This document shows positions 1-64,000 of a DNA stretch of 64,000 nt, piece by piece; within the stretch, counting starts at the first letter, position 1, and the number at the start of each line of letters is the position of its first letter. The DNA comes from Antedon mediterranea (Eukaryota; Echinodermata; Crinoidea; Comatulida; Antedonidae). The notes under the pieces were generated by a model. That model had not been told where the DNA came from. It saw nothing but the letters and a program-made list of their open reading frames with translations, and did no database searches. Location: assembly GCF_964355755.1 (NCBI RefSeq), contig NC_092676.1, forward strand, positions 9,034,288-9,098,287, in the 5' to 3' direction. Position numbers and translations under genes: made by a program.

Positions 1-305
1 CGAGAAGTGTTTACACCTACTTGTTCATTCCTTGCAAGACATGCTTCCTGATGATGTCATCATCATGTCAACCCAATCACGTGTGTCCTCCGCAAGTAAA
101 AACGCACTTGATGAACTAGAAAAGGAAATAACTACAAAACTTAAAATTCTAACCGCTCACAAATTTGATGACAAAGTGGAAGAAGTGAAAGATGATAAAG
201 AAAAAAAAAACAAAATCTGTAGAAGAGTGGAGGAAAGAGTTTAGACAAGACAAGAATATTTCTTACAAAAAACGCTGCTTGCTTATTTTTATTGCTAAGG
301 TCAAG
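1..305 (+). pseudogene. Terminal exon of unrecognised plus-strand gene, unit 1, frameshifted
   Basis: This is the same exon seen intact at 41327-41660 and 61764-62097, here entering the window already inside the exon. The frame GAG AAG TGT is open from base 2 until an A-run at 201-210. That run is ten A's here and nine in the other units. The extra A shifts the frame, giving a stop at about 242-244 instead of the shared ending SGGSLHQA. The extra A could be real or a homopolymer error. The protein is lysine and glutamate rich and I recognise no family in it. Confidence 0.4.
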
Positions 306-1502
306 TCTGGGGGGTCACGTCATCAAGCCTAGATACTTAGAGTATCCTATTACAAACAAAAACTTCAATGGACTGTTTTGATAATAATTCAATGATTATC
401 TGACAGTGAATTATAGTACCCATGTAATATCATGGGACTCATAAATACCAGAAATGCTTTGGGATTTGTTATTAGACTCTTTTCCCAGCCGTTTTTTGGA
501 TTCAATACCTATAAATTATAGTCGAGTTTCCATTTTAACAAAAATGTCAAAGTGTAGTATTATACTGCTGCTTGATTTCATCTAATGAATGAGTTATCTC
601 GTATGACGTAGCGGGCTAGAGCAGCAGCGTGAAAAAACTTAAAGAAGTGGAATCTTAATAAAAGTGATTGTTGCGAAAAGTGTTGTATAGAAAGAGAAAG
701 TGAAAAACATATGTTGTACACCTGTAACAGCATTCAATCAGATTTGAGGAAGTTCCGTAAACTGATCGTTAAATGTATTCCGACTAATGAAACATTACGG
801 TCAGGTTTCCCCGAATGGTAAGACATAATTATAGGAACTCAGAACACGCTTGTTAATGAACTCATCTCTTTATTTACATTTAGTATTTACAAATCTTTCA
901 TTATTATAAAACAAGCAAACGGATTATCACTTGGAATTTATTTAAGATTTAATTAATAAAAGCAATATTATGTTCAAAATGTAAAACTATACAATTTTAT
1001 AAAAGTATCCAAACAAAACATAATCTTATAATGCAATATACCATTTTATCATATTTATTTATATTATATCGAATCTCTTTTTAATACTGAATATCAATCT
1101 TTATATCGTTTTAGCTCTGTAATATAAATTTTCTCTGTATACATGTTTGTTTTATCTAGACTTCAACACAATTTCAAAATATTTTACATAATCTTCCTCT
1201 GTCTGTGTAATATCACTTAAATATTCATTGATAAATAGATAGATAGACAGACATATATACTGTAACCTTCACCATATTGTTGTTTATCATTGCAATAAAA
1301 GTGGGTTGCCCCCACAAAAGAGAAAAAAAATATATATTGCTGAAATTAAGCCTCAATAAATAATATTGTTGAGAAGAGGAACACATTTATACAGTATATA
1401 ACTATATCCCATTTTCATGCATAAAGCAATAGTATCTGCCTCTGAAGCACCACCATCAAGATATTATTTTTTTTAAATATATCCCATGTATAAGCAATAT
1501 TA
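245..1502. other. Intergenic AT-rich spacer between plus-strand exon and PFAS 3' end, unit 1
   Basis: I see no open coding sequence here. The stretch contains a short GATA/GACA microsatellite near 1235-1255 and many A/T runs. It should hold the 3' untranslated region and polyadenylation site of PFAS (minus strand) and of the plus-strand exon, which converge here. The same spacer recurs at about 21769-22954, 41661-42851 and 62098-63286. Confidence 0.5.
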
Positions 1503-3650
1503 TTATCTATCTGCCTCTGACGTCTCCAAGCACCATGAACAAGCATTTTGGAACATTTTCATCCACGGTGACGCTTGTAATGTCTCCCGCCAATCTTGCG
1601 GCATCCATGGCCATTGCCACGTCAAAGTTGTACGCTCTGGATGAGGCATGATCGCCAGATGACGGCCATCTGCGGAGCAAATTGCCGCTACGCCATTGGG
1701 TGAGCCATTGGGGTTCAACGGGTATTCAGTTGTCACTTCTCCTTTGTCATCGACAAAGCGCACTGGTGCAAGATTTTCAGACAGAACTGTGTCTTTTGTT
1801 TCTTTGTTAGAAAACTTCATGTGCCCTAGAGAGAAACAATTTGAGTTGAGTAAATTTAATAACATTTTTAGTTAAATTAAAATATAAGTTTGTACTAAGC
1901 ATCCATCATTATCAAGAGGTATCAATATCTAACCTTCTCCATGCTGTGTCCAGACACCAAGCACAGAGCCTTCCATTCCTTTCAGCATTAAAGCAGGGCT
2001 TTCATTAATCTTTACAGCAACAAAACGAGACTCAAAACGCTCGGAAAGATTATGAGCAAGATGGACTCCTTGCTGAGCTGATGCTGCGTCTAAAAGACAA
2101 TAACAAATAATTCATAATAAACAGTCTGTCAACAAATGGATATCAAAAAGTAGTTCATATTTTCTTTTTATTTGTCAAAGAGGCATTACCTGCTTTACAC
2201 CGGTGTCCTACTACCACTAAACTACTTACTAAATATACCTCATGATACCTTACCTGTAGTAAGCTCCTTGGTGACATCTGGAGCAACCCAGCCTAGCAGG
2301 CCCATTAGTTGGCAGCCATTGCATACACCCAGTGAGAAAGTGTCTTTCCTTGCTCTAAATGCATCAAACTGAGCACGCACAGCTGGGTTGAACAAAATAG
2401 TTGCTGCCCAACCTAAAATGATTAATAAACATTATTTAAATAAACTAGAATAAATATTTATTTAGGTTACTATCTGTCTAATACTAGTATAATACTTGGT
2501 TACTGCTCCAGCATGTATTTTTGCTATGCTACAAAAAGTGCAATCAGAAAAATATACCTTTTGCAGAACCACAAACGTCTGCAAAACTGAAGCCACCAAC
2601 AAAAACTACTCCACGGAATTGATCGAGGGTGACTTTCCCGCAAGCTAAATCTTGCATATTGACGTCCCATGTTTCAAAGCCAGCCATGTGTAGTGTTGAA
2701 CTCATCTCTCGATCTCCATTACTGCCTTCCTCACGGATCACAGCAACCTTTGGTTTCATTCCATCTATGGAAGGCCAATTATGATTATGTATATGGTAAC
2801 TAATGAGCCAAATTTAACTCGTATTACTTTAACAAATTAAAATTCAGAACAAGATAATCAATATTCCAAAATTGGTTCTAACCTTTAGAGCATCCCTTTT
2901 TAACAGAATTCAAATTTGTTGCAACGGGGTAAAAGGTTAATTTAAATGGTGGTGCTGTTCTATTTGCTAAATTGCGTTGCTCCACTTCAACACACTCTGG
3001 ATTTGCTTGTAGTTTTTCCAGTTGAAAACTAGTCTCTTCCCACACGTCTCTAAGAACAGTCATCTTTTCATTCAAGACTTCTTTCTCATTTACCGAGATG
3101 ACAACCTATAATTTACATGTAAAATATTCAGATTCATTCTAAAAACCATCATAAATGATAAATGATCGTAAATAAATGTTCAAATATTGCTTCCATTTAA
3201 AAAAAAAAAAACTTACCATTGACCCTTGACCTGATCCACTAGAGTGACCAATTAGAGAACAAGGGACATTATTGTCACTGAACTGTCTACAAATGTCCTC
3301 ACTAGCATTAGCTGTTACTTCTAACACCAGCCCTACTTCTTCAGCAAACAGAATATCAATTGCAGTTACTGAAAATAAATATATAAAGTCTTACAATGTA
3401 TTATTGCTTACCAGAGGTTCTGGAACCATATGAAAGATTAAAATGACACTTTACAGATCCATTCGAGGCATTTATAGAGATAGCATAATGCTTACCATCA
3501 GGTTCGGAAAGTTTGACGTCAATACCACAATTCCCAGAAAACGCCATTTCTAATAATGTTGTTACAATACCGCCATCACTAATATCATGACCAGCTGATA
3601 TTTTTCTATCCACAAAAGGATACAAAAGACAAAGTTGAATTCATATCTCT

Positions 3651-3803
3651 AAAGCTCTGTCTACACTATCAAACTTTATGTGATGTGATATGCCCATATA
3701 TGGACATGATATCATATCACTACCATTTTTGGGCATTTCACTAGCCTATTTAGGCGCATCACATTTTTTTGTCAAACTAGTTTCATAGTGTAGACAGCGC
3801 TTT
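3651..3803. mobile_element. Short inverted-repeat element (MITE) in PFAS intron 14, unit 1
   Basis: About 150 bp. It begins AAAGCTCTGTCTACACTATC and ends with a near-perfect inverted copy (GTGTAGACAGCGCTTT). The interior is rich in palindromes such as TATGGACATGATATCATATC. It has no coding capacity. A shorter relative lies in intron 5 (7439-7544). Equivalent copies are at 25104-25256 and 45000-45152. Confidence 0.7.
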
Positions 3804-5109
3804 ATATTATAACTACAAGTAAATGAATTTATTGTAAACGTCTAATTAATAAGTCTATGAAAATGACTACCTTTGATAAGATTTTGCGTTGTGTTGAAAG
3901 CCCTTACAAACGTTTCCGGTTCATCGAGATCAGGCGAGGATTGTCCGAGTTGATTATAGCACTGAGCGAGAGCACTACCACCTAACCGGTTATGCCTTTT
4001 ACCAAATGAAACCCAGAGCAAAGTCCCTGAAATAGAATATGTAAAGTCTTGTTTATAAATATATTATATTTTTTGTTTGTTTAGGTAGTTAATTTAATTG
4101 TACCTAACAAAATGTGCAATGTTATATTCACTTTACCTTTACTGTCTGGACATTTAAGGTCAGGGGTCACAGTTGCAGTAATATCTGGGCATGCCACATA
4201 CACAGACACAACCAATGCACCTAAAAAATTGTAATTGATATTTCATTATTAGTAAGTAAATGGGAAAAAAAAGTGTATTAGTGTATTCAAGCTTAACTTA
4301 TTAAAATAATTCACAAGATTGTACATCAGACACTATACTAGTTATTAACAAGCATGAAATGTCTAACCTGGAGCTTTGATCGTTTCAGAGCCTATCCTGG
4401 CAGCCATACTCAAAGAGTCCTTCCCACCATCCACAGCAACACCCAACTTGCCCATCACCTCGCATGCATCATACAATGCAGCACCCTCACCAGGAAGCTT
4501 CGCTGGCCACATCCAGTTACTGCTACATTTGACATCTTTAAGATCGGAGACCCTAGCAAACACAAGATTGGTAAGGGCTTCTCCTACAGACATCCTGGCA
4601 CCACAGCCAGGATCGACTAACCCTTTAATAGGCTGCTCTCCAATGGCTGTAGCTGAGCCTACAGTTTCAAAGTGGGAGAGTGCGATAACAGCAACATCAG
4701 CGAGTGGTGTGTGCAGGGGGCCTACACATTGCTGCTGGGCTATCAGGCCCGTGACAGCACGATCAACCTAACAGAAACAATATATCCTGGTTATACACTT
4801 TCCATATTCCTTCACACAAATAAATTATGCAATATTAAAGATAAACAGATCTTTACCTTATTAGTCAAAAATCTTTTACTGGCTACTGAAGGTAGACGCA
4901 GAACACGGTCGAGTGCACATCGGACAGTCAACCCATCAGGTAGTGTTAACTGCTTAAGTTTTGGTTTACATCGATCATACTTGAAAACCTGAGAGAAAAA
5001 AAAATATAATTCTATATAATTTTACAGACAGAAAGAGACACTATTATTATAACACATAATTATTTTCAATGGTTATTTATGATGAAATCTGTGAGATTGA
5101 GAAAAAGTG

Positions 5110-5180
5110 ACCTCAGCTGAGATTTGAACCTGGAATCTTCTGCTTGATATGCAGACATCCTACCATTACACCACTGATGC
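5110..5180 (-). repeat. tRNA-like sequence (tRNA pseudogene or SINE head) in PFAS intron 10, unit 1
   Basis: Read on the minus strand it starts GCATCAGTGGTGTAATGGTA (A-box-like). It has a 5-bp anticodon stem TCTGC/GCAGA around the loop ATATCAA, and a B-box-like GGTTCAAATCTC. Six of seven acceptor-stem positions pair (one as G-T), but the T-stem has two mismatches. The start resembles a glycine tRNA, while the loop would place ATC as anticodon. Best read as a decayed tRNA or tRNA-derived SINE. Confidence 0.6.
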
Positions 5181-5583
5181 ATTCATGGTATGGTTCAAAC
5201 TTATTACCGACACTACTCTACTATCAAGTCTCCATCATACCTTTTGCGGCATCTTCCCAAGAACCCATTCAAGTTGGAGATCAACTGGATAAGTAAGTGC
5301 TGTTCTTTTTATGCTTGGAGGTTCTGCATCACCCTTACCAGCTTCCACTTTCTTTTCCACCTCAAGACGAATCTGAAACAAAACAAAATATTTTTGTATT
5401 GCAAAACTCTTATGCACTCTATCTGTGCATGAAAAGGCATTCTTCAAAATTAGTAACACTGTAGTATTTAAACGTGTTTTTTCATACTTATCCCACAGTA
5501 AGCACAAACTTGCCAATTACAGGATGGATAAAATATTTTATAGTTGATCGTGCTTATAAACTAAGTTTTATTTCAGGCTTAGG

Positions 5584-5670
5584 GAGTGAAGTTGAAAGAG
5601 TCGTGAGTTACAACCCTTGACCTTGGAATTGGAAGGCAAGCATGTTAAACCACCAAGCAACAGCTCCACT
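5584..5670 (-). repeat. Second tRNA-like sequence in PFAS intron 9, unit 1
   Basis: On the minus strand: GGAGCTGTTGCTTGGTGGTT (A-box-like), CCTTCCAATTCCAAGG, then AAGGGTTGTAACTCACG (B-box-like). This is the layout of a tRNA-derived SINE head, too degenerate to be a working tRNA. Equivalents lie at 27050-27151 and 46935-47018. Confidence 0.45.
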
Positions 5671-7438
5671 AAAAAAATTTAGAATAAAGTAGGTAAAAAA
5701 AATCATCCAAATATTACCTTCCCATCACCTGTAATGTCACCAACAAAAACAGCTGGACATTTCTCTCTGTCACAAATATCTAGAAGTTTTTCTTGATCCT
5801 CAGATCGTATTAGTATGGCATTGGACTCCTGGTATTCTGCACCCCATAGTTCTAAGGTGTTGATGGTTGGATCACCTAGTTGGAATTCCTTAGCTTTTAT
5901 TAGAGCACCTGCAGGTTCACATATCTCCTTTAAAACATTACCTGTACACAAAAAAATGATTTAATTGGTCAGATGTTAGCCATAGTTTGACATAAAAATA
6001 AGTACATTTGTCTGACAAAGTGTCCCCTTAATAGGGATGTCCCAAATGAGGGGTGCTACTGTACTTAGTAAAATAATAAAAATAAGCACATTGCATGCAA
6101 ACTCACCATTGCCTCCAGCTCCTTGATCATGTATACTACATATAGGGTTTGTATCAACCATCTCAATGCACGCCCTTATAACTCGGTTTAGTTTCTGTTC
6201 CATCTCCGCATCACCGCGCTGCACGGCTTCGAAGTCCAGTTTTTCTGTATTGTCACCTTGAACTTGAATGGAAGATGCAGCGCCCCCACCGACTCCGATG
6301 CGATAGATTGGTCCACCAAGTTTTACAATTTTCATTCCTGCATGGTAAACAATTATTGATCAGTCAATAATTAGTTTTCAATGGAGAAATAAAAACAAAA
6401 TATTTTATCAGGTTACTATAATCTTATTTTATATGACAGACATATAATATCTATGTGGAGACAACAATAATAAGAATTGTACAGTATTTTTTATGGTGTT
6501 GTATTTAGTTTGTTTAACAAACCTTTTTCTGCTTCGTCTTTAGTCGCATGCATACTCTCAAGCATCCCAATACCCCCGCTGAACATAATGGGCTTGACCC
6601 ACTCTCTTCTGTCGCTCTCAGAAAGCATCATGCCAAATGAACGAGAGAAACCGGTTAGAACGGGTTCACCAAACTTGTTGCCGTAGTCAGATGCACCATT
6701 GCTGGCCTTTACAGCAACCGACAGAGCAGGCGCCATGTTGCTAGGATAAACCATATTTTTGTCCTCCCATGGAAGGTCATACCCTGTTTAAACAAATGTT
6801 CAATCAATGATAATAAATAATTAATTACACTGAATATATAACATTTATAAAAAGCAAAATTATGTAATTAAACAAGCAATTATGCCTGTTCACTGCATGC
6901 GTTACTTAATATCTTTCATCCCATACTCTATTTATACATATAAGTGCCAGTAAATGAATATCTTTTAATTGTTGTTACTTTGCAAATCTTTGATAAGGTT
7001 TATCCTTTATATCTGTATATTTGTTATGTTTTATTTTCTGTTATATTTGTATTTATTTTGATTTTTGAGCGAGTAAAGTCTGACATCAATTTTCATAAGG
7101 ACTACAAAATCTAATTTTTAGATTTATATAATTTACCTGGAATGTTCAAATTTCCAAAACAGTAGCCTGCAGTGCCAGCCACTACATGTGCCCCCTTCCC
7201 TGCAGCCTGAACATCACGTATCCTACCCCCAGTACCAGTTGTAGCCCCTGGGAAAGGTGCAACCCCAGTTGGAAAGTTATGGGTCTCTGCTGTGAAGATG
7301 ATATGCCTGAGTGGTTCAGATTCCTCCATCACACTTGCTGACCCGGGATTGGCTGGTTTGAGAACTTTGACCTTATGGCCTTTGATTGCACTGAAAATCA
7401 AGTAAAGTCATCAAAGTGAGAAAAAACAGACAACATTT

Positions 7439-7544
7439 AAAGCTCTGTCTGTCCCCAAATATGGTAGTGATATGACATCATCATATCCATATATGGGCAC
7501 ATCACATTTTTTTACATAAAAGTTGATAGTGTAGACAGAGCTTT
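7439..7544. mobile_element. Short inverted-repeat element (MITE) in PFAS intron 5, unit 1
   Basis: About 106 bp with the same ends as the intron 14 element: AAAGCTCTGTCT on the left and GTGTAGACAGAGCTTT on the right. It shares inner words such as CATATATGGGCACATCACATT. This is probably an internally shortened member of the same family. Confidence 0.65.
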
Positions 7545-10302
7545 AGGCAATACTTTGTGGTTCAACAAAATGTGAATAAATATCATTTACGATGGAAATT
7601 ATGCCTGTAGTATTTTATGGGCTATTTCATGACACCTTCTAGAACTAATAATTTCAGGTATAATGCCTAATTCTGTCCAGCACAACAAGATTTATACAAG
7701 AGTCATAGACACCATTCCAGTGAACTATATCAGGATTCGATTCGGAAAATATGGATATAAATATAAAAGCCACGTAAAATGTTAAGATACCTGCTGTTAT
7801 CCGAGAATTTAATGACGTTGTTATCATTGCTGGTAGCTTGCGTTGACATCACCATCTTGAATAAAGAATGATCTTTTTCTTCTCCATCGATTACCATCTT
7901 ACCCTTAAAAAACCAATGACGACTATGCTCACTAGAAAGAAGACAGAAAGCAAGAAAAAACCATTTGTAGGAATATTTTCAGGAATTTCTAAATACAGTA
8001 ATGAAAGCTGAGAAATGTTGCATAGATGAACAGAATTTAAGTAAAGAATGGTCTATGTCTTAGGATTATCCATGGTTACAAATACTATTTTACTTTATTT
8101 TAGGCTAGAAGGCAATAGACAATGCCACAATTGTTTTTCACCTGTTTTTTTTTTAGGTATATATTGAGGCAGATGGTATCTTTGTTCTTTTTGACTGTTT
8201 TACTTCATTTACTTTATTTTTACCTCATTTTGATTTAGCTATTTAGCATATTCTATTTATATCTCTATCCAATCACTGATAAACTCACAGCATTGCAATA
8301 CTGTATTTTCAATAATTTAGGTTTGTATTAAATAAAGATATTACTTTTACAAGACAGTAAAGAATGTAAATAAATATTCATGACCATCATTCACAGATGG
8401 TAAAACTTCATGCGACTAAAACTAAAGTGCTTTGTACCTGTTAGACTGAGCCAAGTCAAAGAGTTCAACACTTGTTGGATTCCGTTTAACCTTTTCAATA
8501 AACATGTTGGTGTAAAAGTCTATGTCCCACGTATCAAAGGCAAGTCCTGCAGTAAAGAATAATACAAAATGTTTATAATGCAATATTAATAATAGAAATT
8601 TTCATCAACCATTTATTGGTCATGATAAGCTTTGGTTTATAAATTCAATAACAATGAATTCTTAAATGAACAATGTATCCACAGACCGATTAAATAATTA
8701 CTGTACAGTAATATTAACTGGTTACTAGAACACACTTAAAAGAATATGAAATCATGTTGGATGTTAAGCTAAATGTAATGTTAAAGACCTATTCCCTACA
8801 ATTTTTGCCTTGTCTTTTCTGTTTTATGGTAAATTATGATAAAAAGAAAGAAACAATACACATGCACAATGCATGTTATGATTTATAGAAAGTCTCTAAA
8901 TGATTAGAATCAACTTATTTTTCAAATTTTTAACAGTTTTAAAGACGAAAAAGTTATCGCATACATATTTATTTTTACATTAAATGTAGTTTGTGACCTA
9001 TAATTAGATCTAAAAACGTAGGAAATGGGACTTTAATCATAATATAATGATATACAGTATCAACACAAAGTTACCTATATTAATTTTAAAGTTAAGTTAA
9101 TAATAGAAAAAACTGAAATAGAATTAAAAAACACAGGAGTTTAACACAGTTCAAAGATCATCTATACTTGGGAAACATGATTGAGAGTACTACAATCACC
9201 TAATTCTTTGTTTGCCTTTTCCAGAGCAACTTTTCCTTCACCTATAACATCAATTTCAAAGACTTCTTCTGGTTTAGCTTTAATTTCAAAGCTGCTGATT
9301 GGTTCGTGGTAGCGACATTCCGTCATACGATCGTGAAGTACGGCTACCAGTAGCTTCTCTTCCTCGGGGCTGATAGACGCAGCAATGCCATGATCGTCGG
9401 CTACGTTTATAAGATAGCGAATAGAACGCTCAATACGAGTCACATGGTTGATTCCAGCCGATTGGCAGATTGAGACGGCATTTGTTGACCAGGCCGTAGA
9501 GAAGTTCAACCTGTGTGTATAAAAATTAAACTTATTATATCATATACAGTAGATAGTGTAATGTAATGTCCATGATATTAAATATACAGTCAACATATTC
9601 TGCCATGCATGTTTATGCCCACCTTTCTTAATTTATGCCTATTACCTTATTGAACAACAAAAATTATGACTTTTACTTTTTCAGATATTACCTACCGAAT
9701 AACAAAACATACAGTATTATTTATTAATACTTATTCTCAACTGAAACCGACACTAACACTGTACGACTAGACAAGAAGGGTAATTTGTTAATTAAAAAAC
9801 ATTTTCTGACCTAGGCCCAATTTCAATCAGAAGTCCATCAGGTTCTTGATCATCTTCAACTATGATTGACTTGGTCAGCAGACTAAATTCTTCAAAAGGG
9901 GTACCTAAGATCCATTGTATTTTCTTCTGTTCTTCACCACTGAGTCAATCTATGAAAATAATACACAGTTTAATTGACATTTTCAAAATAATATTAGTTT
10001 GGCAAAAAATTTATTAAAATTTAAATTAGAAAGGAAGAGTACCTACCTCCGTTTACTTCCACATTAAAACAAATTTCCGTTTTTAAATCTTGCAATTTAG
10101 AATTTTCCAACTGCTTTGCTAATTTCTTCCACAAAACATTTGAAGCCCCTGGGAGTAATGCCGGACTTTTATAAAACCGAGTAATGATAGTCATATTCTT
10201 TAAAAAAATAAATTATTAAATATTAGATCTATATTATTTTATATATTATTATTTATTATTATTGATGTTTACACTAAAAAAGTATAACTATAAAGTATAT
10301 GA

Positions 10303-10880: not shown

Positions 10881-13306
10881 GGTTAGATGGTGGTTGTTGT
10901 ACGGTATCACCAAGCACATCAAACGTGTTACTTGAGATTGTGCTAATGCCATTTTGTTTACAGTATAGATTAGGTTTAGATACAAACTTTTTGGGTATTG
11001 CTAAACTGCGCAAACAACAACAAAAGCTGCGCAAACCTCCTTCAAAACAATTATTATTGATTAGAACACAACTAGAACTATATAGGGAGACAATTTATGG
11101 GAAAAAGAATTTAAAATTCCTTTAAGTTTGCCTTTTTTTGGGTGAAAAACTTCAATTTTTGGGAAAATTACTGATTTAACAGCGCAAAGAACAAAAAAAG
11201 CTGCGCAAACCTCTCTCAAAACAATTAATATTGATAGAACACAACTAGAACTATATAGTGAGACAATTTATGAAGAAAAAAATTGAAATTCCTTTAAGTT
11301 TGCCTTTTTTTGGGTGAAAAACTTCAATTTTTGGGAAAATTACTGATTTCACAGCGCAAACAACAAAAAAAGCTGCGCAAACCTCCTTTAAATCAATTAA
11401 TATTGATTAGATAACAACTAGAACTATATAGGGAGACAATTTATGGGAAAACAAATTTGAATTTCCTTTGAGTTTGCCTTTTTTTGGGTGAAAAACTTCA
11501 ATTTTTGGGAAAATTACTGATTTCACAGCGCAAACCCCCAAAAAAGCTGCGCAAACCTCCTTCAAAACAATTAATATTGATAGAACACAACTAGAACTAT
11601 ATAAGGAGACAATTTATGGGGAAAAAAATTGAAATTCCTTTAAGTTTGGCTTTTTTTGGGTGAAAAACTTCAATCTTTGGGAAAATTACTGATTTCACAC
11701 CACAAACAACAAAAAAAGCTGCAAAACCTCCTTCAAAACAATTAATATTGATAGAACACAACTAGAACTATATAGGGAGACAATTTATGGGAAAAAAATT
11801 GAAATTCCTTTAAGTTTGCTTTTTTTTTGGTGAAAAACTTCAATTTTTGGGAAAATTACTTATTTCACAGCGCAAACAAAAAAAAAAGCTGCGCAAACCT
11901 CCTTTAAATCAATTAATATTGATAGATAACAACTAAACTATATAGGGAGACAATTTATGGGAAAACAAATTTGAAATTCCTTCAAGTTTGCCTTTTTTGG
12001 GTTAAAAACTATTAATGTTAAGTAAACTTAAAGGAATTTCAAATTTGTTTTCCCATAAATTGTTTCCCTATATAGTTCTAGTTGTGTTCTATCAATATTA
12101 ATTGATTTAAAGGAGGTTTGCGCAGCTTTTTTTGTTGTTTGTGCTGTGAAATCAATAATTTTCCCAAAAATTGAAGTTTTTCACCCAAAAAAAAGAAAAC
12201 TTAAAGGAATTTCAAATTTGTTTTCCCATAAATTGTCTCTTTATATAGTTCTAGTTGTTATCTAATCAATATTAATTGATTTAAAGGAGGTTTGCGCAGC
12301 TTTTTTTTTAGGTTTGCGCTGTGAAATCAGTAATTTTCCCAAAAATTGAACTTTTTACCCAAAAAAAGGCAAACTTAAAGGAATTTGAAATTTTTTTCCC
12401 ATAAATTGTCTCCCTATATAGGTCTAGTTGTGTTTTAATCAATATTAATTGATTTAAAGGAGGTTTGCGCAGCTTTTTTTGGAGGTTTGCGCTGTGAAAT
12501 CAGTAATTTTCCCAAAAATTGAAGTTTTTCACCCAAAAAAAGTCAAACTTAAAGGAATTTTATATTTTTTCCCCATAAATTGTCTCCCTATATAGGTCTA
12601 GTTGTGTTTTAATCAATATTAATTTTTTTGTTGTTTGCGCAGTTTAGCAATACCCAACTTTTTAGGTAGTTCAAATTCAGGTTCACTTGCAATATTCTGT
12701 AAACTAAGAATTTGTTGCTCAAGAGACCAGTTTCTTTCACTCATTTCTTTAAAAGCTTTACTAAGGTGAACAAAATTTGAATGGATTTCTTGAATTAGTG
12801 TAGCTGTTGTTTTAATTCAGAAACTTTCTCATCAGTTTGCTTTATTTTCAGCTTTAGTGATGGGATCTGGTCCCATTATTTAGGTGTTTGAGTTGAACAA
12901 TCAATTGCTTTCACAAACTCAGAGGATTTACAATTCTGACTGTAATCGTTGAGTGTTATTTCTTCAATTAACGGCGCTGTTCCAATATTTAGCTCGTCTT
13001 TTTTTATTTCCTTTCATAATCATAGCTTAATTTTCTGAATAGATCAATATTATCAGGAGTCGATGTTTCAAATGCAAGCCTATCAAAATGACTTCTAAGT
13101 TCATCATATGCAAAGCCATAAAAGCTAGAGTTTGTTGTATCTAGAATGCTTGGAGCTTTTATATGACCATAGCTAGGCCACTGGTTTTCCATTGTTAGCT
13201 TTGTTTGAAATTGGGCGGAAAAAGCTTGTGTACTTACTTGAACAATAGAAAGCTGGTGTATCAATTGTTCTTGCTTGAGCCTAAGATCCTCAACATGAAA
13301 AAACAC
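10881..13306 (-). pseudogene. Degenerate coding-like sequence, possible coiled coil, split by a transposon, unit 1
   Basis: On the minus strand a coding-like path runs from 13306 (GTG, no ATG) through HFDRLAFETSTPDNIDLFRK, a frameshift, ELNIGTAPLIEEITLNDYSQ, an in-frame stop, LKLKIKQTDEKVSELKQQL and a second frameshift. It then gives FKEMSERNWSLEQQILSLQ and NIASEPEFELP. It resumes on the far side of the 10993-12655 element with KKFVSKPNLYCKQNGIS. The lysine, glutamate and leucine spacing suggests a coiled coil. I do not recognise a family. It could be an old host gene or a retrotransposon first ORF. GTAAGT after LSIVQ could be a splice donor. Confidence 0.4.
10993..12655. mobile_element. hAT-like nonautonomous element built of two head-to-head tandem arrays, unit 1
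   Basis: The ends are inverted repeats starting GGGTATTGCTAAACTGCGCA (23 bp perfect) and are flanked by the 8-bp direct repeat AACTTTTT (10985-10992 and 12656-12663). An 8-bp duplication fits the hAT superfamily. Inside, units of about 172 bp repeat about six times in one orientation (to about 11998), then about three and a half times inverted. The arms meet at CTATTAATG near 12009-12017. Each unit holds two GCGCAAAC words and TTGGGTGAAAAACTTCAATT. There is no transposase. The whole can fold into a long hairpin. Confidence 0.75.
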
Positions 13307-20076: not shown

Positions 20077-21392
20077 TTAGGATATGCTGTAAAAACTTGT
20101 AGTAGGCCTACACATGTTATCAGGGATGGGTTCAACAGACTGTGAAAGTTCAGTAATAGTAGGTTCAACAATAGGTTCAATAATGGGTTCAATATTAGGT
20201 TCAATAATAGGAGTATCATTAGGTAAATCAATAATGGGACTTGGAAGAATCTCGGTATCTTCAAAACAAAGTTGAGAAACAGACACAGGCTCAGGGCAAG
20301 GTTGGAGGGATCATGGTGCGGAATCTAAACAAGATTGCGGGATGAGTAGAGGTTCAGAACAAGATTGCGGGATGAGTAGAGGTTCAGCACAAGCCACAGG
20401 AGAATCAAGAATAGTGACAGAAAGTTTAGGACTGGGTACAGATGATACTGGGGAGTCAACTACAGCTGGCTCTACATCTGTTGCAACTTCACTTGCTTCT
20501 TTAACATCAAACTCACAAAAACTGACGTGACTACAGACTCGATGCTCTCGTCAAAGAACGCATTTACAGGACTACTATCAGTGGAAACATTTCCAGCACT
20601 AATATGAGATATATAGCAGGAGTAGTTTCATGGACAAATTCTTGGGCATCTACATTCAGCGGAAAATGGGGTGAAATGGACGAAACTGTAAACGTTTCTA
20701 CAGGGAGTGTGACTGAGAAGTCTAATGAGACTAGCATTGTAACCTCCTTCTCACTGGATTCACCACTGTCATCATGCTCGCTCTCAGTGACATGAACTTT
20801 TGCCTTAGACCGCGTGTAATAGGGCGGTTTATCTTCTGTTTAGTAGGTTTTGCTGGTGGATCTTCTTTGTTTAAATAGTCGATGGGCAGAAGTATGTTTC
20901 GATGTAGTGTTCGTAGGCCTACTCGACCACTATTTGATTCTGGCTTCACACGGAGTCCCACTGGTCAGCGAGTTTGTGTTTACCCTGTAGTCCCAGATTT
21001 CGAATCAACACTCGATCACCTGGATGAAGATCATTGACTCGTACTTTCAAATCATGTCGAACTTTGTTCTTGCGTGCTGACTTCGCTGCCTCTTCAGATG
21101 CCATTTGATAGGCAAGCGATAGTTGGTCTCTCAGATCGTTGACGTACTTTATGGGGTCAGCGTTACCAAATCCATCTGGGCTAATTCCAAACCGTAAGTC
21201 AACAGGAAGTCTCGCCTCTCGTCCGAACATCAGAAAATAAGGTGAGAAACCTGTACTGTCATGCTTCATACAGTTGTAAGCATGAACCAAAGCACTGATA
21301 TAGCGACTCCAGCTTTCCTTCTTTTCGCCTTCGAGTGTATACCTAACATATTCATTAAAGTTCGATTAAAGCGTTCAGGTTGTGCTAGATTA
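20077..21392 (-). mobile_element. Ty3/gypsy retrotransposon integrase C-terminus, degenerate, unit 1
   Basis: Read on the minus strand: QPERFNRTLMNM, a one-base frameshift, EKKESWSRYISALVHAYN, then STGFSPYFLMFGREARLPVD (21290-20946 is open). GDRVLIRNLGLQGKHKLADQW and GLRTLHRNILLPIDYL follow. These are hallmarks of the gypsy integrase end. A proline, serine and glutamate rich tail follows with a 30-bp duplication (PLLIPQSCSE twice) and IIEP-type repeats, ending at 20077. The integrase catalytic core, reverse transcriptase and Gag are absent. A 2-bp insertion near 20815 adds another frameshift in this unit. Confidence 0.85.
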
Positions 21393-21430
21393 AACTCACT
21401 CACTCTCTTAACTATCTTTTAACTTCCCAG

Positions 21431-41287: not shown

Positions 41288-41326
41288 AAACTCACTCACT
41301 CTCTTAACTATCTTTTAACTTCCCAG

Positions 41327-51542: not shown

Positions 51543-51651
51543 ATTCTTTAAAAAAATAAATTATTAAATATTAGATCTATATTATTTTATATATTATTAT
51601 TTATTATTATTGATGTTTACACTAAAAAAGTATAACTATAAAGTATATGAC

Positions 51652-52228: not shown

Positions 52229-54905
52229 AGGTTAGATGGTGGTTGTTGTACGGTATCACCAAGCACATCAAACGTGTTACTTGAGATTGTGCTAATGCCA
52301 TTTTGTTTACAGTATAGATTAGGTTTAGATACAAACTTTTTGGGTATTGCTAAACTGCGCAAACACTGCGCAAACAACAACAAAAGCTGCGCAAACCTCC
52401 TTCAAAACAATTATTATTGATTAGAACACAACTAGAACTATATAGGGAGACAATTTATGGGAAAAAGAATTTAAAATTCCTTTAAGTTTGCCTTTTTTTG
52501 GGTGAAAAACTTCAATTTTTGGGAAAATTACTGATTTAACAGCGCAAAGAACAAAAAAAGCTGCGCAAACCTCTTTCAAAACAATTAATATTGATAGAAC
52601 ACAACTAGAACTATATAGTGAGACAATTTATGGGGAAAAAAATTGAAATTCCTTTAAGTTTGCCTTTTTTTGGGTGAAAAACTTCAATTTTTGGGAAAAT
52701 TACTGATTTCACAGCGCAAACAACAAAAAAAGCTGCGCAAACCTCCTTTAAATCAATTAATATTGATTAGATAACAACTAGAACTATATAGGGAGACAAT
52801 TTATAGGAAAACAAATTTGAATTTCCTTTGAGTTTGCCTTTTTTTGGGTGAAAAACTTCAATTTTTGGGAAAATTACCGATTTCACAGCGCAAACCCCCA
52901 AAAAAGCTGCGCAAACCTCCTTCAAAACAATTAATATTTATAGAACACAACTAGAACTATATAAGGAGACAATTTATGGGGAAAAAATTTGAAATTCCTT
53001 TAAGTTTGCCTTTTTTTGGGTGAAAAACTTCAATTTTTGGGAAAATTACTGATTTCACAGCACAATTTGCCTTTTTTTGGGTTAAAAACTATTAATGTTA
53101 AGTAAACTTAAAGGAATTTCAAATTTGTCTTCCCATAAATTGTCTCCCTATATAGTTTAGTTGTTATCTATCAATATTAATTGATTTAAAGGAGGTTTGC
53201 GTAGCTTTTTTTGTTGTTTGCGCTGTGAAATCAATAATTTTCCCAAAAATTGAAGTTTTTCACCCAAAAAAAAGAAAACTTAAAGGAGTTTCAAATTTGT
53301 TTTCCCATAAATTGTCTCCTTATATAGTTCTAGTTGTTATCTAATCAATATTAATTGATTTAAAGGAGGTTTGCGCAGCTTTTTTTTTTGGTTTGCGCTG
53401 TGAAATCAGTAATTTTCCCAAAAATTGAAGTTTTTTACCCAAAAAAAGGCAAACTTAAAGGAATTTTAAATTTTTTCCCCATAAATTGTCTCCCTATATA
53501 GGTCTAGTTGTGTTTTAATCAATATTAATTGATTTAAAGGAGGTTTGCGCAGCTTTTTTTGGAGGTTTGCGCTGTGAAATCAGTAATTTTCCCAAAAATT
53601 GAAGTTTTTACCCAAAAAAAGGCAAACTTAAAGGAATTTTAAATTTTTTCCCCATAAATTGTCTCCCTATATAGGTCTAGTTGTGTTTTAATCAATATTA
53701 ATTGATTTAAAGGAGGTTTGCGCAGCTTTTTTTGGAGGTTTGCGCTGTGAAATCAGTAATTTTCCCAAAAATTGAAGTTTTTCACCCAAAAAAAAGAAAA
53801 CTTAAAGGAATTTCAAATTTGTTTTCCCATAAATTGTCTCCTTATATAGTTCTAGTTGTTATCTAATCAATATTAATTGATTTAAAGGAGGTTTGCGCAG
53901 CTTTTTTTTTAGGTTTGCGCTGTGAAATCAGTAATTTTCCCAAAAATTGAAGTTTTTTACCCAAAAAAAGGCAAACTTAAAGGAATTTTAAATTTTTTCC
54001 CCATAAATTGTCTCCCTATATAGGTCTAGTTGTGTTTTAATTAATATTAATTGATTTAAAGGAGGTTTGCGCAGCTTTTTTTGGAGGTTTGCTCTGTGAA
54101 ATCAGTAATTTTCCCAAAAATTGAAGTTTTTCACCCAAAAAAAGTCAAACTTAAAGGAATTTTATATTTTTTCCTCATAAATTGTCTCCCTATATAGGTC
54201 TAGTTGTGTTTTAATCAATATTAATTTTTTTTTTTTTTGCGCAGTGTTTGCGCAGTTTAGCAATACCCAACTTTTTAGGTAGTTCAAATTCAGGTTCACT
54301 TGCAATATTCTGTAAACTAAGAATTTGTTGCTCAAGAGACCAGTTTCTTTCACTCATTTCTTTAAAAGCTTTACTAAGGTGAACAAAATTTGAATGGATT
54401 TCTTGAATTAGTGTAGCTGTTGTTTTAATTCAGAAACTTTCTCATCAGTTTGCTTTATTTTCAGCTTTAGTGATGGGATATGGTCCCATTATTTAGGTGT
54501 TTGAGTTGAACAATCAATTGCTTTCACAAACTCAGAGGATTTACAATTCTGACTGTATTCGTTGAGTGTTATTTCTTCAATTAACGGCGCTGTTCCAATA
54601 TTTAGCTCGTCTTTTTTTATTTCCTTTCATAATCATAGCTTAATTTTCTGAATAGATATCAGGAGTCGATGTTTCAAATGCAAGCCTATCAAAATGACTT
54701 CTAAGTTCATCATATGCAAAGCCATAAAAGCTAGAGTTTGTTATATCTAGAATGCTTGGAGCTTTTATATGACCATAGCTAGGCCACTAGTTTTCCATTG
54801 TTAGCTTTATTTGAAATTGGGCGGAAAAAGCTTGTGTACTTACTTGAACAATAGAAAGCTGGTGCATCAATTGTTCTTGCTTGAGCCTAAGATCCTCAAC
54901 ATGAA
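52229..54905 (-). pseudogene. Degenerate coding-like sequence split by a transposon, unit 3
   Basis: Same path as unit 1, interrupted by the element at 52342-54268. The 100-codon open stretch is broken here by a 7-bp deletion near 54655 (CAATATT missing) and by TGG to TAG in the NQWPSYG motif near 54788. Confidence 0.38.
52342..54268. mobile_element. hAT-like element with arms of unequal length, unit 3
   Basis: Flanked by AACTTTTT at 52334-52341 and 54269-54276. The terminal inverted repeat extends to about 33 bp here, since both ends include an extra ACTGCGCAAA. The left arm has about four units, the right arm about six. The junction is near 53065-53100. The right arm contains a larger duplicated block: 53250-53590 resembles 53780-54110. 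Confidence 0.75.
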
Positions 54906-55987
54906 AAAACACTTAATATCCTGCTTATAATATTGACTTTGACAATAAAAATTACATCTCCATGTTGAGAAAACAACAGTTTAGACAATTTATCAGTCAC
55001 TAGCTGGTAGAAAGTTGAAAACTAATTTATAGAGAAGATTTTTCAATAGCTTTTTTCAAGAGCTTCTTGGCTTGGCTAAGACTGTCGAAACTGGTTTTAA
55101 TTAAAGATGTATTGTCCCTTTGACTAATTCCAAAAAAATAAAAAATAAAAGATTTCAAAAAAAGGTGGGTCATTTTGAAGTATCATAATAGTTATTAACT
55201 ATCACCAAAAATGTTTCGAAAAAAAAAAATTTTTAACTGAAATACAGACGTTTTTTTGTTAAAAAAATAACTTTGACTTCCAGTCAAAGTTTTCAATCAA
55301 AACATATCCCATAATGAAACGCGTTTGTTTGGCTACTCTGTATGCATAATCATAAAACTTCCTCATGATCTGTGTGAAAATACCTTCTTAACCGTGACGA
55401 GTTGTAAACAATCCTAATTTAGCATATGCATAATGCGTACTCATGGTTTGAAATCTTTGTTTACTTTCGCTCGTGACGATTTTCCAGATGAAATGTAATC
55501 AAACTAATTTACCTGTTAATTACGTAAACTTGTTGTTTTTGGCTCAAATTTTCGACTTAAAGTGAATAACTTTAATATTACTTTGATATGGCCACTTTAA
55601 ATTTAGAATATTTTGACCTTCATTTTTTTGTGTTTCAAGGGACAATACATCTTTAATTAATTTTATCCTAAAAAAGTACAAGATTGCCCATATATTATAG
55701 GCTATCTAGGACCAGGTTCTTTCTATAAATATATGCTAGGCTATATTTATATGTAACTCGGCGTTTACGTCAAAAAAACATGAGCCTGGTTTTTATTTAG
55801 TAGGCCTAGCCTAGTCGACAACATCATTCCCGCACTTCCATCGTTCATTTTATAAGTAGTCCGTTCTAAATAAAAGGGCCTACCCTAGGCCTAGCTAGCT
55901 AGGCTTACCTGCCCATTAGGCCTAGCCTAAATTGTAGTCATCAGAAAGAGCACTAATCAAAAAACAGATACACAACAAGTAATCAAT
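54525..55987. repeat. Single 896-bp segment with a transposon inside, unit 3
   Basis: The left end has first-copy features (GCGCTGTTCCAATATTTAGC) and the right part has last-copy features (AATTTATAGAGAAG, GACTGTCGAAAC), so it looks like a fusion of the outer copies. It is enlarged by the 548-bp element at 55105-55652. Confidence 0.85.
55105..55652. mobile_element. 548-bp nonautonomous DNA transposon with TTAA target duplication, unit 3 only
   Basis: It begins AGATGTATTGTCCCTTTGAC and ends TTTCAAGGGACAATACATCT, inverted repeats of about 18-20 bp with one indel. TTAA flanks both sides (55101-55104 and 55653-55656). The empty site is visible in unit 1 near 15287-15300 and in unit 2 near 34940. 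TTAA duplication is typical of piggyBac-type elements. There is no transposase frame. Confidence 0.82.
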
Positions 55988-58900
55988 GATATATCAATAA
56001 TTTAACACACAAACAGAAAATGAAACCAACTTACAGTATGTTTAGAACGGGGCTAAGCTTGCAAACAAATACTGTGTAGGCCTACTACTCTCTCCGCGAG
56101 CGTAAACATTATTTAATCCACATGTGTTCGGTCATAGAGAAAAGTTTACTTTCTATTGACTATGGTTCGGTACGGTCTGATGATTTTGAAGAGCGCCACC
56201 AATAATTTAGTAAGTGAGTCAAAAGGTTGATACGAAGAATTAATAATGTCATTGAATGATATAATAATTGCATAATAATAAAGTAATACTAATTATAATC
56301 GAATGAAGAAATGATACATTTATTCTATAATATCATTCGTAATAAAAAATATTTACACAATTACGATTATTGACTCATTTAAAATCATGAACGACGCGAG
56401 TTGCGAACCTTTCAATTGATTTGATTAAAAATGACTATAGGAGGCTCCAAATATCTACGAAATATGTTATCCGAGATACAGAACAAAGAATTTGTAAACC
56501 AATTGAATATTTTTAATGACAGTAAATATGAAAATGTGTGTGTTTATTGGAGTGTGCATATCCATTCAACAGTATCGACTGTAAACATCGTGAGGTGGTT
56601 TCCACATTCGTATGATCAAACGGTAGCCTACAGGGTATGATCAACTAGCGTTCGTGTTCCCACCTATAATCATCCATTCATAGAAGTACTGATGAAGATA
56701 TCAATCTGTGGCAACAATAGAATGGACCCGAGACCTGGCTATCTTCGACTTTAAAATAATAGAAAGTTTTGAAAAATTTGTTTCTAGAAATGTACGTTGT
56801 ATGATGTATAGGCCTATGTTTATTAAAAAATTGTTGTAGTTTTCTAAATTACATTGTACAAGTTGCGAAGAGAAAACTGTTATTTGATCGTAAGTTAACG
56901 TGTACATAAAGCAAAACTATCCATCCATAGGGTCATTTATCTTTTGCTAATTAATCTCCTCTTGCTTGATTGCACTCAAGCAACAATACTACAATTGTAA
57001 TAGCACAATGGAAGATTAAAAGATAAACTAAATCACACAGTACAGTCTAAATACTAAAACAACTAAAACAATTCAATACAAAACTTAATTTAAAGTATTA
57101 GATCAGGCATCAAGTCTGCCCAAAATAATGATAAAAGTATGCACATCACTCACCTAAAATAGAGAGCCAATATCCTCATTGAGTGCATGGAGGTATACCA
57201 CCATGTTGAGTGTAATAAAAATAACTTCAAAACTTTAAGTGTACAAACTGTACAACGTGTAAATATCACAATCTTCTTTAACTTGAATTGTACTTTAAAC
57301 TTAGTACTCTTTTAGTATACCGTATATAATATATATATATATGTCTTTCAGTACTTTCAAATAGGTTCTCGAACTCAACGTTGTTCGAAATGTAAAAGTA
57401 TATAAAGTTGAAATTTAATTAAAGTTGGAGTGTCCAGCACGTCCGATGGCAAGAGGCAAAGAGAAAGAAATCTCCCAAACATACCCTAATGTCATCCAAA
57501 ATTGTCAAACAAGGTTTACCCCTATTGGTCCATTCTTGTTACTAGGCAAAACTCAAGAGGGGTAAATTGACCGATTGGTCAATTCCCAAATTTAGGACCT
57601 CCCATTTAAATAGATAAACATGTAAGAAGATTAAAACAGAACAAAGAGAATTCTTAAAAGGATTAATTAACAAAATGATTAAAACATATGCAGTTCCAAG
57701 GAAAAGCAATATAATGCAAACATCTTAATGCTATATTGATAAACAATCTTGCCCACCCACTGCACCCAGCTGCATTACATTGTAGGTACATTGGAAAATA
57801 ATAACATGACAGGGTTACATCCTCCCCTAACTTAAATTGCTACCCCCGGGAGCAAAAACACAAAATATCAAACATTACAAGTAGAGTCACCAGTCAAAGT
57901 GGAAAAAAAAAGGATTAAAATCGTTTCTGTTTAATTTATCTTGGTGAACAGGAAGTGTGATATAAACTCATTCTGCCTGGACACAATTTCAGTAATATTC
58001 ACAATAACTTTTTCGTTATTAAGTTGATTGCTATAGTCTTGAATTTTTTGAAGAATTATTATAGATTTTTTTGCAACAAAATCTTTCCAGTAGTTCAAAA
58101 GTTATGATAAAATATCTAATTTTTCTGAGATATCCTTGTGGCTATTCTAATTATTACACATACCCCACTGCTCAAATGCATGTTGGCTATTCCAAACTTG
58201 CTGGCTAGTCTGAAGATAGTACAGTTGGTAGGGATTCTCATAGAGATATTTTCACTATAATATATCTATGGCATTCTCAATGTGTACACATAAGTAATTA
58301 AATAATTCCTTGCTGTTGGAAGTTTATTTTTAATATCAATAAAGTAAATAACAAAATAAAGAATTAGCTATAATTATAACACATTTAAAATGAATGCCTT
58401 TTATAATTAGTTACCTAAAGTAACTTTACTCCACTTTTTTTTACATATAATATAATAATTTATTTGGAAGCTACACTTTTGAAACAGTGGCACACTTCTT
58501 GAATGAAGGTGCATCCAGAGTAAGTAAAATAAATAAATATTATTTAACAATAGGCCTATTAGTACAAGAGTCAACTTATTTGACAAAAGAACGCATTTCA
58601 ATTAGTCAATTTACATGTTGAAAAATAATCAAAATATTCATTAAGTACCTAAATATAATTAATAATTAATTTCACTTTAATGTGTTTTTATTATTCTGTG
58701 CCTGCTAATTTTTTAGATAGACAATATAATGAACAAAGAACAGAATCCAATAAACATTAAAGGAAATGAACTAGGCCTACAGACCTATTGTTAATTGTAG
58801 ACTCCTATGAAAAGAAATTTGAAGAACAAAAGGCATAATGGGTGGAAACCATTATACAGAATATAATAGATGATATCAGTAATGTGTAAATGTACTGGTG

Positions 58901-60144: not shown

Positions 60145-60406
60145 AAGGCGATTGTTTCGCCTGAACGGTTTTCTATTCAAAGCATACAGGCAAGCATTGC
60201 ACTGGTAGGTGGGGGGAAGACAACAGATAGAACAGCATTCGTGTTCTAAGATCTTGGCTCTTTAAGGAAATTAAATATACTTTTCTAACTTTCAAAATAC
60301 GTTATATTTGATGGATTTTTACAAATCAAGGATAAATTTGTATGTTTTAAATACTTCTAAACACATTTATCTTGTTTAAAGTGATGAAATATGTTTCTGA
60401 AAAAAG

Positions 60407-61724
60407 TTAGGATATGCTGTAAAAACTTGTAGTAGGCCTACACATGTTATCAGGGATGGGTTCAACAGACTGTGAAAGTTCAGTAATAGTAGGTTCAACA
60501 ATAGGTTCAATAATAGGTTCAATATTAGGTTCAATAATAGGTTCAATAATAGGAGTATCATTAGGTAAATCAATAATGGGACTTGGAAGAATCTCGGTAT
60601 CTTCAAAACAAAGTTGAGAAACAGACACAGGCTCAGGGCAAGGTTGGAGGGATCATGGTGCGGAATCTAAACAAGATTGCGGGATGAGTAGAGGTTCAGA
60701 ACAAGATTGCGGGATGAGTAGAGGTTCAGCACAAGCCACAGGAGAATCAAGGATAGTGACAGAAAGTTTAGGACTGGGTACAGATGATACTGGGGAGTCA
60801 ACTACAGCTGGCTCTACATCTGTTGCAACTTCACTTGCTTCTTTAACATTACACTCACAAAAACTGGCGTGACTACAGACTCGATGCTCTCGTCAAAGGA
60901 CGCATTTACAGGACTACTATCAGTGGAAACATTTCCAGCACTAATATGAGATATATAGCAGGAGTAGTTTCATGGACAAATTCTTGGGCATCTACATTCA
61001 GCGGAAAATGGGGTGAAATGGAAGAAACTGTAAACGTTTCTACAGGGAGTGTGACTGAGAAGTCTAATGGGACTAGCATTGTAACCTCCTTCTCACTGGA
61101 TTCACCACTGTCATCATGCTCGCTCTCAGTGACATGAACTTTTGCCTTAGACCGCGTAATAGGGCGGTTTATCTTCTGTTTAGTAGGTTTTGCTGGTGGA
61201 TCTTCTTTGTTTAAATAGTCGATGGGCAGAAGTATGTTTCGATGTAGTGTTCGTAGGCCTACTCGACCACTATTTGATTCTGGCTTCACACGGAGTCCCA
61301 CTGGTCAGCGAGTTTGTGTTTACCCTGTAGTCCCAGATTTCGAATCAACACTCGATCACCTGGATGAAGATCATTGACTCGTACTTTCAAATCATGTCGA
61401 ACTTTGTTCTTGCGTGCTGACTTCGCTGCCTCTTCAGATGCCATTTGATAGGCAAGCGATAGTTGGTTTCTCAGATCGTTGACGTACTTTATGGGGTCAG
61501 CGTTACCAAATCCATCTGGGCTAATTCCAAACCGTAAGTCAACAGGAAGTCTCGTCCGAACATCAGAAAATAAGGTGAGAAACCTGTACTGTCATGCTTC
61601 ATACAGTTGTAAGCATGAACCAAAGCACTGATATAGCGACTCCAGCTTTCCTTCTTCTCGCCTTCGAGTGTATACCTAACATATTCATTAAAGTTCGATT
61701 AAAGCGTTCAGGTTGTGCTAGATT
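60407..61724 (-). mobile_element. Ty3/gypsy integrase C-terminus, degenerate, unit 3
   Basis: Same fragment. The 131-codon segment 61301-60906 is the longest open version of the tail. A 7-bp deletion near 61551 (GTCTCGTCCG where other units read GTCTCGCCTCTCGTCCG) breaks the integrase frame open in units 1 and 2. Confidence 0.85.
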
Positions 61725-61763
61725 AAACTCACTCACTCTCTTAACTATCTTTTAACTTCCCAG

Positions 61764-62097
61764 AGACGAGAAGTGTTTACACCTACTTGTTCATTCCTTG
61801 CAAGACATGCTTCCTGATGATGTCATCATCATGTCAACCCAATCACCTGTGTCCTCTGCAAGTAAAAACGCACTTGATGAACTAGAAAAGGAAATAACTA
61901 CAAAACTTAAAATTCTAACCGCTCACAAATTTGATGACAAAGTGGAAGAAGTGAAAGATGATAAAGAAAAAAAAACAAAATCTGTAGAAGAGTGGAGGAA
62001 AGAGTTTAGACAAGACAAGAATATTTCTTACAAAAAACGCTGCTTGCTTATTTTTATTGGTAAGGTCAAGTCTGGGGGGTCACTTCATCAAGCCTAG
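61764..62097 (+). CDS. Probable terminal exon of an unrecognised plus-strand gene, unit 4
   Basis: Encodes the same protein as the exon at 41327-41660, with the same acceptor and a synonymous change (CCTCTGCAAG for CCTCCGCAAG). Open from the acceptor to TAG. Family unknown. Confidence 0.42.
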
Positions 62098-63286
62098 ATA
62101 CTTAGAGTATCCTATTACAAACAAAAACTTCAATGGACTGTTTTGATAATAATTCAATGATTATCTGACAGTGAATTATAGTACCCATGTAATATCATGG
62201 GACTCATAAATACCAGAAATGCTTTGGGATTTGTTATTAGACTCTTTTCCCAGCCGTTTTTTGGATTCAATACCTATAAATTATAGTCGAGTTTCCATTT
62301 TAACAAAAATGTCAAAGTGTAGTATTATACTGCTGCTTGATTTCATCTAATGAATGAGTTATCTCGTATGACGTAGCGGGCTAGAGCAGCAGCGTGAAAA
62401 AACTTAAAGAAGTGGAATCTTAATAAAAGTGATTGTTGCGAAAAGTGTTGTATAGAAATAGAAAGTGAAAAACATATGTTGTACACCTGTAACAGCATTC
62501 AATCAGATTTGAGGAAGTTCCGTAAACTGATCGTTAAATGCATTCCGACTAATGAAACATTACGGTCAGGTTTCCCCGAATGGTAAGACATAATTATAGG
62601 AACTCAGAACACGCTTGTTAATGAACTCATCTCTTTATTTACATTTAGTATTTACAAATCTTGCATTATTTATAAAACAAGCAAACGGATTATCACTTGG
62701 AATTTATTTAAGATAGAACTATTTAAAAAAATTTAATTAATAAAAGCAATATTATGTTCAAAATGTAAAACTATACAATTTTATAAAAGTATCCAAACAA
62801 AACATAATCTTATAATGCAATATACCATTTTATCATATTTATTTATATTATATCGAATCTCTTTTTAATACTGAATATCAATCTTTATATCGTTTTAGCT
62901 CTGTAATATAAATTTTCTCTGTATACATGTTTGTTTTATCTAGACTTCAACACAATTTCAAAATATTTTACATAATCTTCCTCTGTCTGTGTAATATCAC
63001 TTAAATATTCATTGATAAATAGATAGATAGACAGACATATATACTGTAACCTTCACCATATTGTTGTTTATCATTGCAATAAAAGTGGGTTGCCCCCACA
63101 AAAGAGAAAAAAAATATATATTGCTGAAATTAAGCCTCAATAAATAATATTGTTGAGAAGAGGAACACATTTATACAGTATATAACTATATCCCATTTTC
63201 ATGCATAAAGCAATAGTATCTGCCTCTGAAGCACCACCATCAAGATATTATTTTTTTTAAATATATCCCATGTATAAGCAATATTA
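62098..63286. other. Intergenic spacer, unit 4
   Basis: Equivalent of 245-1502 with nothing gene-like. It has the ATAGAACTATTT segment of units 2 and 3, but shares CCCCGAATGG with unit 1. Confidence 0.45.
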
Positions 63287-64000
63287 TTATCTATCTGCCT
63301 CTGACGTCTCCAAGCACCATGAACAAGCATTTTGGAACATTTTCATCCACGGTGACGCTTGTAATGTCTCCCGCCAATCTTGCGGCATCCATGGCCATTG
63401 CCACGTCAAAGTTGTACGCTCTGGATGAGGCATGATCGCCAGATGACGGCCATCTGCGGAGCAAATTGCCGCTACGCCATTGGGTGAGCCATTGGGGTTC
63501 AACGGGTATTCAGTTGTCACTTCTCCTTTGTCATCGACAAAGCGCACTGGTGCAAGATTTTCAGACAGAACTGTGTCTTTTGTTTCTTTGTTAGAAAACT
63601 TCATGTGCCCTAGAGAGAAACAATTTGAGTTGAGTAAATTTAATAACATTTTTAGTTAAATTAAAATATAAGTTTGTACTAAGCATCCATCATTATCAAG
63701 AGGTATCAATATCTAACCTTCTCCATGCTGTGTCCAGACACCAAGCACAGAGCCTTCCATTCCTTTCAGCATTAAAGCAGGGCTTTCATTAATCTTTACA
63801 GCAACAAAACGAGACTCAAAACGCTCGGAAAGATTATGAGCAAGATGGACTCCTTGCTGAGCTGATGCTGCGTCTAAAAGACAATAACAAATAATTCATA
63901 ATAAACAGTCTGTCAACAAATGGATATCAAAAAGTAGTTCATATTTTCTTTTTATTTGTCAAAGAGGCATTACCTGCTTTACACCGGTGTCCTACTACCA
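63287..64000 (-). CDS. PFAS: Phosphoribosylformylglycinamidine synthase copy 4, last two exons, cut by the window
   Basis: Only exon 21 (63609-63287, ending in TAA) and exon 20 (63873-63718) lie in the window; exon 19 begins beyond it. They encode the end of the glutamine amidotransferase domain, including MPHPE and [13 protein letters not shown]. In this stretch copy 4 matches copy 1 at sites where copies 2 and 3 differ, for example GGAACATTTTCATCC at 1552 and 63336 and TTTTTATTTGTC at about 2165 and 63949. The state of the rest of the gene cannot be judged. Confidence 0.9.

Follow-up and report, generated by a model that had tools for sequence, protein, structure and literature searches.

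Young tandem families of highly similar copies have been described for Sdic in Drosophila (PMC10589255) and for the antifreeze-protein arrays of polar fish (PMC13032017). Among purine genes, most Pristionchus species are reported to have lost the de novo pathway, along with pfas-1 (PMC9526060), and the gene pair PPAT and PAICS to have a common bidirectional promoter (PMC2444028). Here we consider a 64,000-bp stretch from the crinoid Antedon mediterranea (the window, C7:9034288-9098287, in an assembly of 354 Mb and 18 contigs), which lies within a tandem array of PFAS genes. PFAS is a large enzyme of the purine pathway, and to our knowledge its gene is single-copy in most animals. In its near-identical tandem copies, which call for caution in counting and assembling them, the locus resembles the Sdic and antifreeze arrays; it differs from them in that the amplified gene is a 21-exon housekeeping metabolic gene whose probable source is kept on another contig. 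With Pristionchus it shares a lineage-specific change in PFAS copy number, which is a loss there and an amplification here. No earlier report of a PFAS array was found in the open-licence literature, judged mostly from listings. We consider it likely that this is a young birth-and-death array, derived from a once-constrained duplicate of a PFAS gene on contig C5 and holding a few usable copies. An array in which intact, shortened, broken and mosaic copies occur together with a retained probable source and a duplicated GART gene offers a test of dosage against an accident of unstable DNA in the amplification of a metabolic gene.

The gene of the C7 array is PFAS, with a predicted FGAM synthase activity. 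In a tblastn search of the window, E. coli PurL residues 209-1290 were matched exon by exon in three minus-strand series, and a fourth minus-strand series was partial, comprising the 3' end only. The splice model, set from an alignment of three copies (A, B and C), gives copy B 21 exons and a 1355-aa protein, of which residues 4-1351 aligned with residues 4-1337 of the PFAS of PDB 9n9w (1783 bits). Both copy B and the C5 gene contain GVCNGCQ and MPHPER, which we take to be the glutaminase Cys and His-x-Glu motifs, with the catalytic roles that these imply. This full-length homology and the two motifs are what the gene has in common with E. coli purL and 9n9w, the latter presumably the human protein; the difference lies in the twelve tandem copies plus one found here. 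A Pfam search with FGAR-AT_linker gave no match despite the presence of PFAS, and exon-by-exon Pfam family searches are thus insensitive here, having failed on a gene that exists.

The first-pass annotation had reported a tandem PFAS array of at least four units, a claim that is borne out and enlarged by searches of the assembly. At the DNA level, copy B has at least 12 full-length matches at 98-100% identity, from C7:8997722 to 9235167, and a protein search found one further PFAS gene on C5, near 27.103-27.108 Mb; both counts are lower bounds, drawn from the best 39 (DNA) and best 34 (protein) candidates scored. The 12 array copies (U01 to U12) lie on the same strand, head to tail, with a start-to-start spacing of 13-25 kb, and array homology spans C7:8996956-9265277. 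There are no N bases in the 292,565 bases of C7 that were read (C7:8987723-9280287), nor in a 20-kb piece of C5. The last, partial unit carries two inserts, one of about 16 kb of tandem repeats and one of 3.5 kb. The larger of these, which splits the unit, occupies C7:9238351-9254364 and shows a 371-bp offset in self-comparison.

An exon-by-exon survey of all 12 array copies and the C5 gene found four copies intact (U02, U04, U07 and U12), two open but shortened (U05 and U08) and six broken by a stop, splice or frameshift lesion. The spliced frame is open and the splice sites are canonical in the C5 gene, whose stop codon was seen in the alignment, and in 6 of the 12 array copies, but not in the other 6. 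The 12 bp missing from exon 12 of U05 and U08 encode four residues that occur in the C5 protein and are aligned in 9n9w. U03, U06 and U10 combine a TGA at codon 51, loss of the exon-15 acceptor and the 12-bp loss; in U11 the codon-51 TGA is the sole lesion; exon 3 of U01 lacks 23 bp; and U09 is missing 38 bp of exon 16 in addition to the 12 bp of exon 12. At codon 351 the C5 gene has Arg, where the array and 9n9w have His.

Within the window, copies A (U03, 1503-10194), B (U04, 22955-31690) and C (U05, 42852-51542), all on the minus strand, have limits that agree to the base with those of the first-pass annotation, which had called them three complete 21-exon genes. Each does have 21 exons, but copy A is not functional: codon 51 in exon 2 is an in-frame TGA (9945-9947) where B and C have TGC, the exon-15 acceptor is destroyed by a change from AG to GG (3610-3611), and the 12 bp of exon 12 are lost. 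Copy B has the open 1355-aa frame with canonical splice sites, and copy C is open with the four-residue loss in exon 12 (45717-46116). A fourth unit had been described as entering at 63287, and this follows from the match at C7:9097559; only the last exons of this copy D (U06, 63287-64000, minus strand) are within the window, and over its whole length D shows the TGA and the acceptor lesion already described for A.

A block of three units, A-B-C, is repeated over 66.9 kb at 99.84% identity with an offset of 61.8 kb, and U11 is a clean mosaic, A-type at the first 10 diagnostic sites and B-type at the next 39. When the informative columns of the array are compared in pairs, 539 of 3003 pairs do not fit a single tree. 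In U09, 44 of 46 sites carry the C-type state and the final two, past a block junction, the A-type state; its 38-bp exon loss (C7:9161113) falls exactly where near-identical blocks meet (12 kb, 99.99%, offset 20.4 kb). The mosaic copy and the higher-order repeat indicate unequal crossing-over and conversion as the probable agents. The same near-identical blocks, together with the position of the U09 loss, are what one might expect if haplotypes or repeats had been wrongly strung in tandem by the assembly, and an assembly error is possible at the U08/U09 junction. As an account of the whole array, this explanation is very improbable: divergence between copies is graded, the small lesions are of five different kinds, one copy is a mosaic, spacer lengths vary, the sequence is free of N, and two haplotypes alone would not suffice for twelve units.

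The C5 locus is probably the source of the array. Tail to tail with the C5 PFAS gene, on its 3' side, lies a gene of which one exon matches Fanconi anaemia group B protein (FANCB; E 1e-19); the long frame nearest to PFAS gave no match in a FANCB search of that frame, and from its position and orientation it would be the last exon of FANCB. About 302 bp of this exon recur 11 times in the array at 94-96% identity, once in every unit but U01, and in the window these fragments are on the plus strand at 1-242 (cut by the window start), 21373-21678, 41269-41570 and 61706-62007. Since the array units carry this torn piece of the C5 neighbour, C5 is their likely source. In addition, a block from the upstream region of C5 PFAS, 0.6-1.2 kb from the gene, is found 11 more times, always on C7: ten of these occurrences separate array genes, and the eleventh belongs to the partial unit at the end. 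In the array units satellites and other repeats intervene, so that the block lies 3.9-9.0 kb upstream of the PFAS start closest to it, and 19.9 kb upstream in the last unit; the window has it on the minus strand at 15567-16232, 35220-35876 and 55931-56587, respectively 5.4-6.0, 3.5-4.2 and 4.4-5.0 kb upstream of copies A, B and C.

The seed copy of the array evolved under constraint. Between the C5 gene and copy B, exons 4-21 give a dS of 0.047, a dN of 0.0078 and a ratio of 0.17, and divergence is 1.67% in exons and 2.95% in introns 4-20; intron 3 was excluded, being misaligned and accounting for 187 of copy B's 337 intron substitutions. The 21 replacements observed in exons 4-21 compare with about 43 expected had the seed been neutral (p 0.00016, by a rough Poisson estimate at the intron rate). 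Within the array, changes were polarised by the C5 alignment, with one three-state column dropped and nine columns without a C5 state polarised by majority. They comprise 17 silent and 21 replacement changes and one stop (binomial p 0.003 against a neutral share of 0.776), and the 39 coding changes compare with 71 in introns (p 0.02). Changes with at least one fully intact carrier number 10 silent, 5 replacement and 37 intronic (p 0.0003 against neutrality), and those whose carriers are all damaged or shortened 7 silent, 16 replacement, 1 stop and 34 intronic (p 0.46). The variation limited to damaged or shortened copies looks neutral and that shared with intact copies looks depleted of replacements, in small numbers.

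These patterns bear on whether the array is a pure passenger, that is, an unstable, repeat-rich segment that was amplified neutrally and in which every copy is dispensable. This is a serious contender, though we put it somewhat short of an even chance. Disabling lesions in 6 of 12 copies and the shortening of 2 more fit it, as does the neutrality of the changes private to such copies; the spacers hold satellites and LINE-like and integrase-like fragments, and on its left the array is flanked by a further repeated block, which contains histone genes. It is opposed by the constraint on the seed copy and by the depletion of replacements (5, against 10 silent changes) in the variation shared with intact copies, which suggests that some array copies may be used. 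The first-pass annotation had posed greater purine supply and passengers of an unstable segment as alternatives, and what emerges is closer to a mixture: most copies, the eight that are damaged or shortened, look like passengers, and a few may serve.

We suggest that C7 received an intron-bearing, DNA-level duplicate of the C5 PFAS locus, together with the end of the neighbour's last exon, and that this duplicate was held under purifying selection, with the C5 gene also retained. The duplicate would later have been amplified to about twelve units of 13-25 kb by unequal crossing-over among tandem units, and exchange and conversion would have shuffled variants among them, spreading intact and broken copies alike. 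The outcome would be the 4 intact copies, 2 open but shortened copies and 6 pseudogenes of the present array, of which the intact ones may be expressed and add some enzyme.

Several observations sit uneasily with a young array derived from C5 and retaining usable copies. The proximal upstream sequence common to the array copies and C5 is only about 54-66 bp, beyond which repeats are inserted, and expression of the array copies is therefore doubtful. U01 has neither the neighbour-exon piece nor the upstream block. Exons 1-3 and the upstream sequence are more diverged from C5 than the rest (dS 0.124 in the exons, 5-9% upstream), with a break in PFAS intron 3 (C5:27110100) that separates a 3' side mostly at 1-4% per 500-bp window from a 5' side at 5-16%. 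A single simple duplication is thus insufficient, and a later conversion of the 3' part would explain the excess; it is possible that such a conversion took place between C5 and C7 after the duplication. As to selection within the array, the two classes of change differ in their ratio of replacement to silent changes only at a Fisher p of 0.045, the class that includes intact carriers also contains changes carried mostly by broken copies, and changes confined to intact copies number just two replacement and one silent. Loss from the array of a promoter kept by C5 is not asserted here; about 175 bp of the C5 upstream region is a dispersed repeat.

At its right edge the array adjoins a second duplicated gene, GART. 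This gene encodes the enzyme of steps 2, 3 and 5 in the same purine pathway as PFAS. Array homology stops at C7:9265277, 14 bp beyond a LINE-like tail in the PFAS 3' flank, and 23 bp of no assigned homology separate it from homology to a GART intron that starts at 9265301 on the plus strand. The 5'-truncated duplicate occupies C7:9265301-9276168, with homology that runs past the end of the gene to the last of these positions. Its first exon matches E. coli PurD from residue 198, the first ~200 residues being lost; in the full-length GART gene, which lies 7 Mb away (C7:16.381-16.396 Mb), the PurD match starts at residue 2. Compared with this gene, the modelled coding sequence of the duplicate gives a dS of 0.052 and a dN/dS of 0.18, and its introns are 4.81% diverged. 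An open frame in the duplicate is possible, in a model that forbids stops, so that openness is partly built in, and that has three frame-compatible joins at the junction 9270046-9270415. The complete gene reads NCRLGDPE (C7:16385721-16385975) where the truncated copy reads NCRFGDPE. An equal age for the PFAS and GART duplications was considered and dropped, as only the dS values are close (0.047 and 0.052) and the introns differ (2.95% and 4.81%).

The adjacency of PFAS and GART recalls the PPAT-PAICS pair, as far as the available part of that account describes it, in that two purine genes are adjacent and divergent; the copies here differ in having been joined by duplication, with GART lacking its 5' end. 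It is conceivable, but quite unlikely, that the locus was a derived second purine locus on C7. In that scenario C5 PFAS and the GART gene at C7:16.4 Mb would have been joined divergently, both under purifying selection, before PFAS was amplified; a deletion at the edge would then have fused the PFAS 3' flank to a GART intron, removing the 5' end of GART, so that only an AIRS-GARFT remnant, perhaps still produced, would be left. The adjacency of two duplicated genes of one pathway is striking, yet it is one case, and coincidence is possible.

The GART duplicate also enters into the question of whether the amplification was adaptive, with more PFAS raising purine synthesis, for example in a tissue with high purine need. 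The four fully intact copies beside the C5 gene, the shortage of replacements among changes whose carriers include an intact copy, and a second pathway gene duplicated at the array end and also constrained (dN/dS 0.18) would all suit such a dosage effect. Even so, we regard it as rather unlikely: 8 of 12 copies are damaged or shortened, just 54-66 bp of proximal upstream flank survives beside the gene, and the GART duplicate is without its first ~200 residues. Nor is duplication across the pathway supported, ATIC, PAICS and ADSL_C each being matched at a single locus (through 2, 4 and 1 exons respectively, in the insensitive family searches); for PPAT, the GATase_7 matches are too unspecific to judge. 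The dosage and passenger explanations share the origin that we prefer, a C5 duplicate that was later amplified, and differ from it in function only, so the likelihoods attached to them are not exclusive.

At its left edge the array adjoins an irregularly repeated block (C7:8952177-8996950) with H2A, H1 and H4-like genes, the last presumed to be such from its residues. Within the window, a LINE-like fragment with an A-rich tail lies beside the PFAS 3' flank on the plus strand (633-1330); its zf-RVT match (633-821, E 0.0035) is below the cut-off. An open reading frame fragment on the minus strand (20946-21365) has no Pfam match, and we take it from its residues to be integrase-like. Tandem repeats of 896 bp are present in three copies in unit A (12911-15621), two in unit B (33461-35274) and as a partial copy in unit C (54524-55104). 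A satellite of 172-174 bp occurs at 11008-12624, upstream of copy A, and at 32662-33162 and 52364-54226; it is found in both orientations within one spacer (11008-12624, 52364-54226), and its copy number varies between units.

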